Source: Alistipes sp. ZOR0009 | GTDB lineage: Bacteria; Bacteroidota; Bacteroidia; Bacteroidales; ZOR0009 | Length of the DNA: 64,000 nucleotides | Reading direction: 5' to 3' | Assembly: GCF_000798815.1 (NCBI RefSeq) | Contig: NZ_JTLD01000033.1 | Location: 124,001-188,000, forward strand | Shown here: in pieces, positions 578 to 5,963 of the stretch | Layout of the letters: every line of letters starts with the position of its first letter | Position numbering within the stretch: the first letter of the stretch is position 1 | Program-made: the position numbers and the translations under genes | Notes under the pieces: generated by a model | What the model was told of the DNA's origin: nothing | Databases searched by the model: none | Seen by the model: the letters and a program-made list of their open reading frames with translations, nothing else

Positions 578-1744
578 TTAGTCGAGTTCAAAAGTACTTA
601 AAATGTTGGCAGCCTCTTTCAGTGTTGGTTCATCAGCACAAAGAGAAATGCGTAAAAAGCGATTACCATTGCTGCCAAAAACAGATCCTGGTGTTATGAA
701 TACTCCTTTTTGGTACAGAATTTTATCTGCCATAATTTCTGCGTTTTCGATGTTGTCTGGTATTTTTATCCAGAGAAACATGCCCGAATGTTGTCGGGGA
801 AGCTGGCATTCAATGTTGCTGGCAATTTCTTTTGCAATGGTAAGCCTTTTGGAGTATTCCGTATTTAGGAGGTCAAACCACTCCTGTTTTGCAGTTAGCG
901 CAGCCGAGGCGGCCATCTGAATTGGTTGTGCCATTCCCGAGTCCATATTACTTTTAAAGGTAAGCACTGCGCCAATGTGTTCTGATTTCCCCGCAAGCAT
1001 ACCAATACGCCATCCTGCCATATTATGGGATTTACTCAAGGAGTTTAGCTCTAGCACCACATCCTTAGCCCCGTCAACTGATAGCATGCTTATCGGTTTC
1101 GAGTTAAGAATGAAGCTGTACGGGTTGTCGTGGCAGATCAGAATTTTATGCTTTTTCCCGAATTGCACGAGCTTTTCAAAAAGATATTGTGATGCTTGAG
1201 CGCCTGTTGGCATATGCGGGTAGTTTACCCACATCAGCTTAACCTTGCTCAGGTCCTGCTTTTCAATCTCTTCGAAATTGGGATGAAAATCATTTTCCTC
1301 CAGCAGGTTGTATTCTACGGGTATTCCACCTGCAAGCTTGGTTGCGGCAGAGTAGGTAGGATAACCGGGGTTTGGAATAAGGACCTCATCACCTTCGTCT
1401 AAAAAAGCCATCGAGATGTGCATGATGCCCTCTTTAGATCCTGTAAGTGGAAGAATTTCATTTGCAGGGTCTAAATCGACACCATAGTAGCGCTGGTAAA
1501 AATCGGCAAATGACTGTCGAAGCGTTGTGGTTCCTATGTAGCTTTGGTACCCATGTACGCCGCTCTTTTGGCTGGTTTCGCAAAGCTTCTCTATCATCTC
1601 CGATGCTGGTTGGAGATCAGGATTGCCGATGCCTAGGTTGATGATCTTGACGCCATTTGCTCTCATTTGATCAATTTCCTTAAGCTTCTTTGAAAAGTAG
1701 TATTCGCTAACTTTTTCGATTCGACTCGATGGTTTTACGTGCAT
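578..1744 (-). CDS. PLP-dependent class I/II aminotransferase, probably aromatic
   Basis: This is a fold-type I aminotransferase of 388 residues. The PLP lysine is Lys238 in SLSKSHNMAGWRIG. The conserved NYPHMPTG (174-181) and Asp206 in CHDNPY bind the cofactor. Relatives are annotated as aspartate, aromatic or LL-diaminopimelate aminotransferases, so specificity cannot be read from sequence alone. Its place between pheA (18 bp upstream) and tyrA (1 bp downstream) argues that it transaminates phenylpyruvate and 4-hydroxyphenylpyruvate, completing phenylalanine and tyrosine synthesis. That function is inferred from context. The start at 1744 gives a normal N-terminus for the family. Confidence 0.88.
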   Translation of the reverse strand: MHVKPSSRIEKVSEYYFSKKLKEIDQMRANGVKIINLGIGNPDLQPASEMIEKLCETSQKSGVHGYQSYIGTTTLRQSFADFYQRYYGVDLDPANEILPLTGSKEGIMHISMAFLDEGDEVLIPNPGYPTYSAATKLAGGIPVEYNLLEENDFHPNFEEIEKQDLSKVKLMWVNYPHMPTGAQASQYLFEKLVQFGKKHKILICHDNPYSFILNSKPISMLSVDGAKDVVLELNSLSKSHNMAGWRIGMLAGKSEHIGAVLTFKSNMDSGMAQPIQMAASAALTAKQEWFDLLNTEYSKRLTIAKEIASNIECQLPRQHSGMFLWIKIPDNIENAEIMADKILYQKGVFITPGSVFGSNGNRFLRISLCADEPTLKEAANILSTFELD

Positions 1745-1762: not shown

Positions 1763-2614
1763 TTAGAATATCTCAGAACCTGCTTGGTATTCGCCTAATA
1801 TTTTGAAGTAGGTGACGCTTTCGCTTAGCATTTTAACGGTGGCCAAATACTGCATGTAGTTGTTGTAACTCAGGTCGGCATGGAATACGTACTCCCATTT
1901 GGAACCCACTTTAGGTAGTGAGTGAAGCATTGTGAGGTTTACTCCGCACTCCGCAATGTCGTTTAGAATCCGAGCTAGTGCGCCAGGTTCGTGCTTGGCA
2001 GAGAAGCAAATGCTGGCTTTGTCCGATGTGGTGTTATGTATTCTTCCATTTTTACGGGTAAGAATAAGGAAGCGCGTATAGTTTTCTTTGTTGGACTCTA
2101 TTTCTGGGGCGATGATTTCTAGCCCGAAAATTTCTGCTGCAAGCGATGAGCCGATAGCCGCTTTACCTTTAAGTCCTTTTTCAGCGATCTTTTTTGCGCT
2201 TAAGGCGGTATCTTCCGATTCCACTACGCGCATGTGCGGATGTTGTTCCAAAAAATCAACGCATTGCTGTATTGCCATTGGGTGTGATGCTACTTCTGTA
2301 ATATCATCTAATGTTTGGCCTGGTTGTGCAATCAAATTTTGAACAATACGGAGGTATACTTCTCCGACAATTTGAAGTTCGGAATTTCGAAGAAGTGCGT
2401 AGTTGGGGAGGATTCCTCCTGCTACAGAGTTTTCAATTGCCATAAGTGCAGCATCTGCTTGCTCTGAGGAGGTTGCCTCTACGAGCTCTCTAAACGTAAG
2501 GCACTCGACGGTGACAATGTCGTTACCTAGCGCTTGGCGTGCTGCTATTTCGTGAAAAGCGCCTCTAACACCTTGGATTGCTACCATTATTGGCGATTCG
2601 TATTCTAATGTCAT
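1763..2614 (-). CDS. pheA: Prephenate dehydratase with ACT domain
   Basis: The enzyme converts prephenate to phenylpyruvate, the committed step to phenylalanine. The catalytic domain starts with GVRGAFHE (15-22) and contains the family TRF motif at 180-182 (in NYTRFLIL). A C-terminal ACT domain follows from about residue 203 (FSAKHEPGALARIL) and normally binds phenylalanine for feedback inhibition. The usual ESRP of the ACT domain is replaced by HSLP. There is no chorismate mutase domain, so the protein is monofunctional. The start at 2614 is uncertain: Met10 at 2587 lies nearer the conserved region. It is the first structural gene of an operon with the aminotransferase and tyrA, and sits 26 nt after the U-run of the second attenuator. 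Confidence 0.92.
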   Translation of the reverse strand: MTLEYESPIMVAIQGVRGAFHEIAARQALGNDIVTVECLTFRELVEATSSEQADAALMAIENSVAGGILPNYALLRNSELQIVGEVYLRIVQNLIAQPGQTLDDITEVASHPMAIQQCVDFLEQHPHMRVVESEDTALSAKKIAEKGLKGKAAIGSSLAAEIFGLEIIAPEIESNKENYTRFLILTRKNGRIHNTTSDKASICFSAKHEPGALARILNDIAECGVNLTMLHSLPKVGSKWEYVFHADLSYNNYMQYLATVKMLSESVTYFKILGEYQAGSEIF

Positions 2615-2640
2615 TGTTCTAGTTCTTTGAATTGCTAAAT

Positions 2641-2672
2641 AAAAAAAGGCCCCAACCTGTGGGACCTTTATG
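2641..2672 (-). terminator. Attenuator 2: terminator hairpin upstream of pheA
   Basis: On the minus strand a 7-bp stem (AGGUCCC with GGGGCCU, one G-U pair; plus-strand 2661-2667 and 2647-2653) is followed by seven U (2647-2641). The 5' arm and its flank (2661-2672) are complementary over 12 nt to the end of the leader peptide frame (2705-2716), with 11 Watson-Crick pairs and one G-U. The hairpin therefore has a built-in competing antiterminator. It lies 26 nt before the first possible pheA start. Confidence 0.85.
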
Positions 2673-2694
2673 TTTTGTTACTTCCTATTTAATT

Positions 2695-2823
2695 TCAGTA
2701 TACACATAAAGATCCCTGCTTTCTCCAGTAATAGAAAAAGTAAAAGAAATACACGGTAAAGAAGGAATTCGGTGCTTGTCCTAATTCTGCTTTTGTGGGC
2801 GGTATATTGAGCTTGTTTTTCAT
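2695..2823 (-). CDS. pheA leader peptide 2, aromatic-rich, 42 aa
   Basis: This small frame starts at ATG 2823 and ends with TGA at 2695-2697. Residues 21-33 are FFTVYFFYFFYYW: six Phe, four Tyr and one Trp in 13 codons. That is what a ribosome-stalling leader for an aromatic operon needs. The last codons (36-40, Gln-Gly-Ser-Leu-Cys) overlap the segment that pairs with the terminator arm. A stall in the aromatic run would leave that segment free. A ribosome reaching the stop would cover it. The frame was found by reading the pheA leader. No homology is claimed. Confidence 0.85.
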   Translation of the reverse strand: MKNKLNIPPTKAELGQAPNSFFTVYFFYFFYYWRKQGSLCVY

Positions 2824-2837
2824 TTGCGATTTTGGGT

Positions 2838-2869
2838 AAAAAAAAGAGCCCCATTTGGGGCTCCGCTAT
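2838..2869 (-). terminator. Attenuator 1: terminator hairpin after leader peptide 1
   Basis: On the minus strand a perfect 7-bp stem (GAGCCCC / GGGGCTC; plus-strand 2857-2863 and 2846-2852) with loop AAAT is followed by eight U (2845-2838). The 5' arm and its flank (2857-2869) can pair with leader codons 24-28 (2895-2907) as seven base pairs (one G-U), a 2x2 internal loop and four more pairs. This is an antiterminator that excludes the terminator stem. It lies 15 nt before the start of leader peptide 2. Confidence 0.85.
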
Positions 2870-2887
2870 ATGTCGTATTCGTTAAGT

Positions 2888-2977
2888 CTACACAATAGTT
2901 AAGCCCCCTCTTTTTTCAAAAAAGAAGTAATAAAAGAAATAAAACCAATTTGCTATTTGCTGACTTGCTTTCATCAT
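2888..2977 (-). CDS. pheA leader peptide 1, aromatic-rich, 29 aa
   Basis: Starting at ATG 2977 (or the adjacent ATG at 2974) and ending with TAG at 2888-2890, this frame encodes a 29-residue peptide. Residues 11-20 are WFYFFYYFFF, ten consecutive aromatic codons. Codons 24-26 (Gly-Gly-Leu, GGGGGCTTA) form the antiterminator strand. The spacing fits ribosome-mediated attenuation: a ribosome stalled in the Phe/Tyr run leaves these codons exposed, while one at the stop codon masks them. I see no clear promoter between here and the uvrA stop. A one-mismatch -7 box (TAATATTG) lies near 3000. Confidence 0.85.
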   Translation of the reverse strand: MMKASQQIANWFYFFYYFFFEKRGGLTIV

Positions 2978-3110
2978 TTCAATGCTTAACGATGCAATAT
3001 TAATCGTTTATTCCTTCCGTGCTCCTGTATTGGTGAAGTAAATAGCTGAATTTAACTTTTGTTAAAAAGTTGATTCGTGGTGCTATTCTCTCAATTACAG
3101 GATCTTTCTC

Positions 3111-5963
3111 TTATTTAAGATATGCTTTCAGGAATTGTCCGGTGTAGCTTTTTTTGTTTTTGGCAACTACTTCGGGAGTGCCAGTAGCAACAACTACGCC
3201 TCCTCCGGCTCCCCCTTCAGGCCCCATATCAATAAGGTAGTCGGCAACTTTGATTACGTCAAGATTATGCTCTATAACGATCATTGTATTACCTCTGTCT
3301 ACCAGCTTTTGTAGTACATCCAGCAGCTGGCGTACATCGTCGAAGTGGAGGCCTGTTGTTGGTTCGTCTAGTATATATAGGGTGTTACCGGTATCCCGTT
3401 TGGCGAGTTCGGTAGCGAGTTTTACTCGCTGACTTTCTCCTCCTGAAAGGGTGGTTGATGGCTGCCCTAAGGTTATATAGCCAAGTCCAACATCTTTTAG
3501 TGCTTTAATTTTTTGATGTATGGATGGGATATGCTCGAAGAAAACGGCAGCTTGATCGATGGTCATGTTTAGCACATCGCTAATCGTTTTGCCTTTATAC
3601 TTAACCTCCAACGTTTCGCGGTTGTAACGCTTTCCGTTGCATGTTTTGCAGGTTACGTATACATCGGGGAGAAAGTTCATCTCTATAGTCTGTACTCCAG
3701 CCCCCTTACACTTTTCGCAGCGTCCTCCTTTTACGTTGAAGGAGAATCGTCCCGCTTTAAATCCACGAATCTTGGATTCTGGGGTTGATTCAAATAGCTT
3801 CCTAATGTCGCCGAACACGTTGGTATAGGTCGCAGGGTTGGATCGTGGGGTTCTACCGAGCGGAGATTGATCTACATCAATAACCTTATCGAGATGTTTA
3901 AGCCCTTCCAGATCCTTATATGGCATTGGCTCTTTTGTAGATCGGTAGAAATGCTTGCTGAGTATGGGGTGTAGCGTTCCGTTTATAAGCGTTGATTTTC
4001 CGCTTCCTGACACTCCCGTTACGCAGATAAAACTTCCTAGAGGAAGGGATACCGACACATTTTTCAGGTTGTTGCCTGTTGCTCCTTTTATGGTAAGGCA
4101 TTCGCCGTTGCCTTGGCGTCGTTGCTCGGGGATTGCTATCTTTTTTTCGCTGCGAAGGTATTTTCCCGTTAAGGAGTCGGCGTTTTTAATCGTTTCGAAA
4201 GTGCCTGCAGCAACCACATCTCCACCATGAACGCCTGCGCGAGGTCCCATGTCTACAATATAGTCTGCTTCCTTCATCATATCTTCGTCGTGTTCTACTA
4301 CAATTACGGAGTTTCCCGAATCGCGTAGCTGCTTGAGCGAGGTGATGAGCTTCATGTTGTCGCGCTGATGCAAGCCGATGCTAGGTTCATCTAAAATGTA
4401 GAGTACGTTAACCAGCTTAGAGCCAATCTGGGTAGCCAAACGTATGCGCTGACTCTCACCCCCAGAAAGGGTTCCCGAAGAGCGGCTTAACGAGAGATAA
4501 CCTAAACCAACATCAATTAGGAAGCTTAGGCGCTCGCGAATCTCCTTTAAAATATCCCGAGCTATCGCTTTTTGCTTGCTATTTAGCAGCGGGTCGACAT
4601 GGAGAAACCATTCAAGAAGGGTTTCGATATCCATGGCCGACAGCTCTGATATGTTTTTTTCTGCCACCTTAAAGTAAAGCGCCTCCTCCTTAAGTCGAGT
4701 GCCGTTACATTGGGGGCATACGGTATATCGGGTAAACTGTTCTACCTTTTTCTTGGCCTTTTCGCTATCGTCGTCGTCTTTGCTCAGGTACGCAATTATA
4801 CCATCGAAGCTAAGAACGTATCCTGTTGTTCCCATTGGCGTTTCCGATAGGCGGAATGTTTCGTCAGAGCCGTATAGAATGATGTTCATGGCATCCTCCG
4901 AAATATCTTCGATAGGATCGTTTAGGGTAAAGCCATACTTGCGGCCAATAGCCTCGATCTGCCAAAAGATGAGGGCATTCTTAAAAGCTCCAATTGGCTC
5001 AATCCCTCCCTTGCGGATGCTAAGCTTGGGGTTTGGAATAATCTTGTCTACGTCGAGTTCCACCACATGTCCAAGTCCGTTACAGTGCGGGCAAGCTCCC
5101 TGTGGGGAGTTGAACGAGAAGGAGTGGGGGGCTGGTTCGTTGTAGGAAATACCGGTAGATGGGCACATCAGATGGCGGCTATAGAAACGGGTTGCATCCG
5201 TTTCGTAGTCGAGCACCATGATGGTACCTTTACCTTGGTTCATGGCGGTAACAACCGATTCGCGAAGGCGCTTGCGGTCGTCCTGTTTTACGACCAGCTT
5301 ATCAACCACCAGCTCTACATGGTGAACCTTATAGCGGTCGAGCTTCATCCCCGCCTTAATTTCGAGGATATTACCATCGACGCGGGCGTATAGAAAGCCC
5401 TTTTTACTTAGCTGCTCAAATAGCTCCTTGTAGTGTCCCTTTCTTCCTTTTACCAGAGGGGCAAGCACCGCCGCCTTTTTGCCTTCCATGTTCTCGGTGA
5501 TGAGATCCACAATTTGGTCGTCGGTGTAACGTACCATTTGCTCTCCCGTATTTTTGGAGTAGGCAATGGAGGCACGCGCAAAAAGAAGACGCATAAAGTC
5601 GTACACTTCGGTAATGGTACCGACTGTTGAGCGGGGATTCTTGTTGGTTGTTTTTTGCTCGATGGCAATAACGGGGCTAAGGCCAGTTATCTTATCTACA
5701 TCAGGGCGCTCCATGTTGCCCATAAATTGGCGGGCGTAGGCCGATAGCGTTTCGAGGTAGCGTCGTTGTCCTTCGGCATATATTGTCTCGAACGCTAAGG
5801 ATGATTTACCGCTGCCGCTGAGGCCTGTAATTACGGTTAGCGCGTTGCGAGGTATGGTTACGTCGATGTTGCGTAGGTTATGGACGCGCGCACCAAGCAC
5901 ATTTATTTCTCCTTCATCATGAAGGAGTGCGTCGTCAATGGTCTTATCGTTGTGTGTAGGCAT
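3111..5963 (-). CDS. uvrA: Excinuclease ABC subunit A
   Basis: UvrA is the damage-sensing ATPase of nucleotide excision repair and loads UvrB on DNA. The 950-residue length is normal. Two ABC modules are visible: the first Walker A is GLSGSGKS (47-54) and the second is GVSGSGKST. Both signature motifs read LSGGESQR. Zinc-binding cysteine pairs occur as CPHCNG, CPQCNG and CEKCKG...CKTCNG. The start overlaps the 3' end of the upstream lytic transglycosylase gene by 20 bp, so the two are probably co-transcribed. No strong terminator follows. A weak AACTTTT/AAAAGTT hairpin lies downstream, before the pheA leader. Confidence 0.97.

Follow-up and report, generated by a model that had tools for sequence, protein, structure and literature searches.

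The region upstream of pheA in Alistipes sp. ZOR0009 contains two complete leader-peptide attenuators, and it is very probable that they act in series on one leader RNA, as ribosome-mediated transcription attenuators, to control the aromatic amino acid operon that follows. The observation of two attenuators, made in an earlier note on the 64,000-nucleotide stretch of DNA analysed here (the window), was confirmed by our analysis. Leader-peptide attenuation is a classical mechanism, and single attenuators of this type are classical in Proteobacteria. Single leaders are also partly in print for Bacteroidota; what seems to be new is a pair of leaders for the same pathway that recurs within one bacterial order, which is unusual. 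Since single-module and two-module genomes are found in the same families, the basal level, the range and the sharpness of the response could be compared between them, and the pair constitutes a natural, repeated experiment on why cells stack two attenuators with like signals.

Two attenuator modules between uvrA and pheA

The gap between uvrA and pheA spans positions 2615-3110 (minus strand, 496 nt) and holds both modules on the minus strand, in the same orientation. In module 1, the ORF of leader peptide 1 (MMKASQQIANWFYFFYYFFFEKRGGLTIV, 2888-2977, minus strand), taken from the ORF list, contains the run WFYFFYYFFF, whose aromatic control codons, as read from the sequence, occupy 2918-2947 on that strand. 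The left strand of its antiterminator, GGGGCTT (2901-2907, minus strand), pairs by sequence with GAGCCCC of terminator 1. The latter is a predicted intrinsic terminator with a U-run (2838-2864, minus strand; hairpin energy -15.9 kcal/mol), whose hairpin at 2864-2845 reads GGAGCCCCAAATGGGGCTCT and is followed by TTTTTTTA. Module 2 starts with the ORF of leader peptide 2 (MKNKLNIPPTKAELGQAPNSFFTVYFFYFFYYWRKQGSLCVY, 2695-2823, minus strand, from the ORF list), which carries the run YFFYFFYYW; the control codons read from its translation are FFTVYFFYFFYYW (2725-2763, minus strand). Its antiterminator left strand, GGGATCTTTATGT (2704-2716, minus strand), pairs with ACATAAAGGTCCC (2673-2661), and the predicted intrinsic terminator 2 with its U-run lies at 2641-2669 (minus strand; hairpin energy -14.4 kcal/mol), the hairpin at 2669-2645 being AAAGGTCCCACAGGTTGGGGCCTTT, then TTTTATTT.

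Between positions 2400 and 3300, three terminator-like sites were found on both strands, against 0.9 expected. The terminator hairpin starts 21-23 nt after each leader ORF and, with the hairpins as the module caller described below draws them, leader 2 starts 19 nt past hairpin 1 and pheA 28 nt past hairpin 2. Each leader is thus a short ORF with codons for the products of the operon (runs of Phe, Tyr and Trp), and each module has its own intrinsic terminator between leader ORF and pheA, kept in three species. These data agree with the earlier note in its account of two modules in a gap of about 500 nt, of U-runs ending near 2838 and 2641, and of an antiterminator strand in each leader, each of which matches its own terminator. 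Its description of a Trp/Phe/Tyr run holds as regards a dense aromatic run in each leader, but the runs are mostly Phe and Tyr, with a single Trp per leader.

Upstream of leader 1, we noted a possible promoter -7 element, TAATATTG (2995-3002, minus strand, 17 nt before leader 1), which may correspond to the TAnnTTTG element of Bacteroidota. In the alignment it is identical in one other genome of the family (G001) and has two changes in another (G002). A scan for sigma-70-like sites, with a model that does not cover Bacteroidota promoters, gave three sites against 1.9 expected by chance. One of them (2919-2892, minus strand, 9/12) falls within leader 1, so that an internal promoter could exist. 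An A/T-rich inverted repeat, AACTTTTTAACAAAAGTT (3054-3071, minus strand), lies between uvrA and leader 1 and could be a weak terminator or an operator.

The first structural gene is pheA (1763-2614, minus strand), whose best NCBIfam match is prephenate dehydratase (E 1.6e-57, below the curated cut-off). It is followed by an aminotransferase gene (578-1744, minus strand; LL-diaminopimelate aminotransferase-like in NCBIfam, below cut-off). By NCBIfam matches the operon order is pheA, aminotransferase, tyrA, a fused DAHP synthase/chorismate mutase, aroB, aroD, aroE and aroA; only aroB and aroA passed the curated cut-off, the remaining names are those of the best family, and the tyrA (prephenate dehydrogenase) call rests on the last 120 residues of the protein. 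The products are Phe, Tyr and their common precursor, and a mixed Phe/Tyr/Trp signal in the leaders suits an operon for the synthesis of Phe and Tyr that also feeds chorismate.

Conservation of both modules within the family

Both modules are present in all three genomes of the family that we examined (the window's own, G001 and G002), so conservation of the two frames and hairpins in relatives, a check proposed together with the original observation, was found in the two other family genomes. The run of leader 1 is kept in the three species (ANWFYFFYYFFF / TNWFYFFYYFFFY / TSWFYFFYYFFFY) and, in an alignment inspected by eye, only third-position changes occur inside WFYFFYYFFF. The ORF of leader 2 also has a counterpart in G001 and G002. 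In the module 1 antiterminator, 21 of 21 pair cells are standard across the three species, as are 12 of 12 more in a short extension. For 12 pairs of the module 2 antiterminator, 36 of 36 cells are standard; one double change from A-U to G-C and two one-sided changes alter the encoded residue (Ser/Phe/Leu), yet the pairing persists. Four cells of terminator 2 score as broken in G001, where the loop is longer, and the G001 hairpin itself is complete. The peptide sequence ahead of the aromatic run drifts even within the genus, and the distance from hairpin 1 to the start of leader 2 varies there between 19 and 22 nt. Three sequences are few, and conservation in the family alone is therefore modest evidence.

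Aromatic leaders upstream of pheA in other genomes

A module caller, which requires a frame 10-60 codons long, at least five F/Y/W among ten residues and a terminator near the end of the frame, was applied to 195 distinct 715-nt regions at pheA. These came from the best 80 of 90 PheA relatives in a scan of genome contigs, a set that includes two Ignavibacteriae (L032 and L068) and two 'uncultured bacterium' records, and from 295 genomes of the window's order, in which PheA was matched 125 times. Eight loci without 700 nt upstream and three duplicate regions were dropped to pass from 206 loci to 195; two of these eight, L008 and L065, nevertheless show leaders. An aromatic leader with a terminator was called in 171 of the 195 regions, 155 with one module and 16 with two, and 24 regions had none. 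On the reverse strands, one module was called in 4 of 195 regions; among dinucleotide shuffles (ten per region), one module appeared in 4 of 1950 and two in none of the 1950. Single aromatic leaders before pheA are thus the rule in these regions, nearly all of which are from Bacteroidota.

One of the 16 two-module calls, L143 (G241), was recounted as a single, which leaves true pairs in 15 of the 195 regions. The last 120 nt before its pheA hold one aromatic leader and then two terminators in a row, and the antiterminator of that leader matches the first terminator better (24.5 vs 14.0). When the search for a third module was extended up to 1400 nt upstream (900 for part of the set), only L110 gave an extra call, VGFYCFWPWYATR, which was rejected as not leader-like by eye.

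Distribution and origin of the pair

Among the 295 genomes drawn from the window's order (Bacteroidales), 125 had a PheA match, and in five of these the upstream region is cut by a contig end. The remaining 120 divide into 88 with one module, 16 with two and 16 with none. Pairs occur in 11 of 55 families, and for three of the 55 (f7, f27 and f90) all regions are cut. In 14 of the 15 tandem loci, 6-29 nt separate hairpin 1 from the start called for leader 2; the remaining locus has 53 nt.

The history of the pair was followed on a PheA tree of 70 of the 125 genomes, picked by hand to include all 16 tandem genomes (30 from the loci set and 40 added). On this tree the pair needs eight changes, compared with an average of 14.5 for shuffled labels, and seven of the eight are forced by branches with SH-aLRT of at least 95; a change may be a loss, gains and losses not being distinguished. 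Of the eight rows in the group that includes the window's genus (support 83), seven have pairs. The tree comes from a quick search without bootstrap, includes one very long row (G270) and follows a single gene that may move sideways. Read in this way, the pair seems to be clustered on the PheA tree but to have come or gone repeatedly, and a single origin is not favoured.

Near-identical terminators in both modules are found in two tandem cases, L026/L098 and L192 (= G148), and they indicate tandem duplication there. Recent duplication was rejected as a general origin: the second module of the same locus is the top-scoring match of the first in only six of 16 loci (L003, L026, L102, L110, L130 and L192) and ranks as low as 16th (L085) and 14th (L113) of 16. 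Nor does the aromatic make-up of whole leaders point to a division of labour in which the two modules sense different amino acids, being alike across the 15 tandem loci (F77 Y56 W8 in first modules vs F85 Y67 W10 in second modules). In L192, counted as tandem only in the 900-nt scan, the ends of the leaders lie unusually far from the matched pheA start (694 and 391 nt upstream of it), and their almost identical terminators point to a recent-looking duplication.

Pairing specificity and predicted folding

Each leader is matched to the terminator of its own module. The mean score of leader against own terminator is 23.6 for first modules (17.2 in permuted sets, n=15), 22.2 for second modules (15.8, n=15) and 21.7 for single modules (16.8, n=156); in each of the three classes the observed mean was reached by none of 5000 permutations. 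Strong pairing was found in 15 of 15 first modules, 12 of 15 second modules and 134 of 156 singles. In 13 of the 15 tandem loci the own pairings beat both swapped pairings; L026 ties in one swap, and in a row-by-row comparison L145 and L146 come nearest to it. This preference for own over swapped pairing fits independence of the modules, and is no proof of it. In strongly pairing modules, the last aromatic codon begins a median of 14 nt (first modules), 11.5 nt (second modules) and 13 nt (singles) upstream of the antiterminator strand. These distances are close to the ribosome footprint of 12 nt from the A site to the leading edge, the value that we assumed in folding.

With the ribosome masked in this way, all six modules of the three species have an antiterminator probability of 0.75-1.0 for ribosome positions in the run and of 0 for a ribosome at the stop codon; the zero is partly built in, because the footprint covers that strand. 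By sequence and folding, therefore, the antiterminator shares the 5' arm of the terminator and is free to pair only as long as the ribosome stays within the run. The same switch behaviour was obtained for 13 of 15 first modules, 12 of 15 second modules and 139 of 156 singles. The five of 30 tandem modules that failed are the second modules of L102, L113 and L118 and the first modules of L110 and L130. The last two loci (G228 and G016) have very short first leaders (MKRNFEYNYFYFN), and their best antiterminator strand would stay uncovered by a ribosome at the stop codon (0.56 and 0.62); these first modules may work differently.

Once the full hairpin is made, a stalled ribosome often does not keep the terminator from prevailing at equilibrium: the terminator probability is 0.85-0.95 throughout for module 2 of G001 and 0.38-0.79 in the run for module 1 of the window. 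The mechanism thus needs the antiterminator to form first, in kinetic order. In all three species, the minimum-energy fold of module 1 without ribosome has the terminator at its end, the U-rich run pairing with the A/G-rich codons behind it like a classical protector, and the corresponding fold of module 2 differs between species.

The failures in the switch test bear on the idea that one module is functional and the other is the decaying leftover of a duplication. Attenuators can duplicate, as the near-identical terminators described above indicate, and the pair comes and goes on the PheA tree. However, the leader, antiterminator and terminator of both modules are kept in all three species of the genus, and the leaders of first modules score higher against their own terminators than in permuted sets, so that we consider this reading improbable.

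A model for two attenuators in series

In the trp and phe leaders of Proteobacteria, a ribosome supplied with charged tRNA arrives at the stop codon, where it covers the antiterminator strand. By analogy, when charged tRNA-Phe or tRNA-Tyr (perhaps also tRNA-Trp) is scarce, a ribosome translating either leader would be held in the aromatic run; the codons behind the run would then be free to pair with the 5' arm of the terminator, and RNA polymerase would read through. With ample charged tRNA, the ribosome would proceed to the stop codon and cover the antiterminator strand, the terminator would form and transcription would end. As only 19 nt separate hairpin 1 from leader 2, both modules are probably carried by a single transcript, and a polymerase coming from before leader 1 must clear terminator 1 before leader 2 exists. 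Since terminator 1 precedes leader 2, full expression would need read-through at both sites. If the modules are independent, the probabilities of read-through would multiply and the logarithmic sensitivities would add. Each module would leak a fraction in a well-fed cell, so that the pair would leak the product, and full starvation would still open both. In the framework of sensitivity amplification, as given in the available part of its source (PMC1183508), logarithmic gains would add in series; applied here, this is arithmetic on the assumed independence.

Two transcripts, one from a promoter before module 1 and one from a promoter inside or just after it, would leave one main attenuator on each RNA. 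The sigma-70-like site at 2919-2892 would suit such an arrangement, but the excess of such sites over chance is small (3 vs 1.9), in a model not made for Bacteroidota promoters, and the short distance from hairpin 1 to leader 2, 19-22 nt within the genus and 6-29 nt in all but one of the 15 tandem loci, argues against it; we regard it as unlikely. Terminator 1, which follows uvrA on the same strand, could also merely end the uvrA transcript, in which case the frame of leader 1 would be due to chance. This is very improbable, given the conserved frame, run and antiterminator of leader 1 and the rarity of modules in shuffled sequences (4 of 1950); moreover, another hairpin, which carries a T-rich tail, is present some 640 nt upstream of pheA in G001 and G002. 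Finally, we give very little credence to a role in trans of the short attenuated RNAs or leader peptides that the tandem copies would serve: a trp leader RNA has trans roles in other systems, but the peptide residues that precede the run vary even among species of the same genus.

The preferred reading thus remains that of two attenuators in series. A broader proposal, which we put forward tentatively and which is rather doubtful, is that tandem leader-peptide attenuators for one pathway are a recurrently evolved logic element in the order and would be the ribosome-read counterpart of tandem T-boxes; the two members of a pair possibly differ in default state and codon order as well. Equilibrium folds hint weakly that, in the window, module 1 would end transcription when untranslated or when a ribosome stalls at the early Trp, and that module 2 would allow read-through except when the ribosome completes its leader. 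If this were true, the pair would open on a shortage of Phe or Tyr and not of Trp alone. Against differing defaults, a co-transcriptional estimate gives an antiterminator probability of 0.89 at the early Trp of module 1, and module 2 of G001 folds otherwise than module 2 of the window.

Comparison with known systems

The closest classical system is pheL/pheA (Rfam Phe_leader, RF01859), in which a short Phe-rich leader, an antiterminator and an intrinsic terminator precede pheA. The window shares the short aromatic leader, the antiterminator and the intrinsic terminator before pheA, and differs in having two modules in series, mixed Phe/Tyr/Trp runs and a larger aromatic operon. In a search of 2500-3200, the best-scoring Rfam match is Phe_leader at module 2 (29.7 bits, E 0.0076), and module 1 scores 22.8 bits (E 0.25) against the same model; both lie far below the gathering score of 55, and we did not file either module under Phe_leader. 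Over seven loci (25,320 bases) searched at E up to 0.5, the only Rfam match was Phe_leader, at module 2 of the window (E 0.27), and this model was matched in neither G001 nor G002. The other matches in 2500-3200 are weak (asX2, Atu_C8, RsaF and others), and none of the 10 matches obtained there with E up to 5 is to the T-box model. The Bacteroid-trp RNA (RF01692), which we take to be a Trp leader, is likewise absent from the matches of 2500-3200 and of the seven loci. Lyubetsky and colleagues have reportedly published comparative work on attenuation. The Bacteroid-trp RNA is named as a Bacteroidetes 5' element in a table of an earlier study available in part (PMC2864571).

For Bacteroidota, the accessible portion of one report describes, for Flavobacterium psychrophilum and other Flavobacteriaceae, structured 5' elements upstream of pheA and hisG, and its authors suggest leader-peptide attenuation for amino acid operons in Flavobacterium (PMC9723704). 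The phylum and the gene are the same as here, and no tandem arrangement is named in that portion. Excerpts of another describe, in Bacteroides thetaiotaomicron, short ORFs that resemble leader peptides (PMC7366714). The earlier note's view that such an arrangement is not described in Bacteroidota therefore holds for the tandem pair, of which we found no example in the open-licence literature, but not for single leaders or a 5' element of pheA, already reported (PMC9723704, as excerpted). A 2010 survey, in the sections at hand, knows of leader-peptide systems in Proteobacteria, in Actinobacteria and in its own Firmicutes find only (PMC2965389), whereas our aromatic leaders in 171 of 195 regions are nearly all from Bacteroidota.

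Other systems share part of the arrangement. According to excerpts of the source, the mgtCBR leader of Salmonella has two short ORFs, each part of an independent attenuator, and is called a singular example by its authors (PMC3641672); the signals differ (ATP and proline) and typical intrinsic terminators are lacking there, whereas aromatic runs and intrinsic terminators are present here. Tandem T-box riboswitches are described, in the available text, as common in Bacillota, in trp and branched-chain operons, the latter of which require, in the authors' view, two uncharged tRNAs (PMC12452182). They resemble our pair as two sensors of tRNA charging with terminators in series, but T-boxes bind tRNA directly, whereas here the sensor would be the translating ribosome. 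The rimP-leader of some Gammaproteobacteria has a second upstream terminator with a potential antiterminator (PMC2965389); it shares with our pair the two terminators in tandem, but the gene and the phylum are different and no leader peptide is named in the part available. ermB has two leader peptides before one gene but, as far as the excerpt goes, shows drug-induced translational attenuation (PMC8274638). A ribosome-read pair of leaders with the same signal and intrinsic terminators was not found in the open-licence literature.

Other leaders in the same genome

Further amino acid operons of the genome have leaders. A His leader, MQLSNLHLHHHYCMPSGMGLMI, precedes hisG (L208, 1183-1301, reverse complement) and a Trp leader, MNFNLQNTQAWWWRNKYLLC, precedes trpE (L209, 1296-1428, reverse complement), each with one terminator close behind. 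Upstream of a second, partial Anth_synt_I_N match (L210), inspection showed no such leader. A branched-chain frame ending RISVIIVLIIIVILPSG precedes ilvD, with one terminator behind (L211, 1173-1350, reverse complement). As hisG, trpE and ilvD have one module each, the pheA operon is the only two-module locus among those inspected in this genome.
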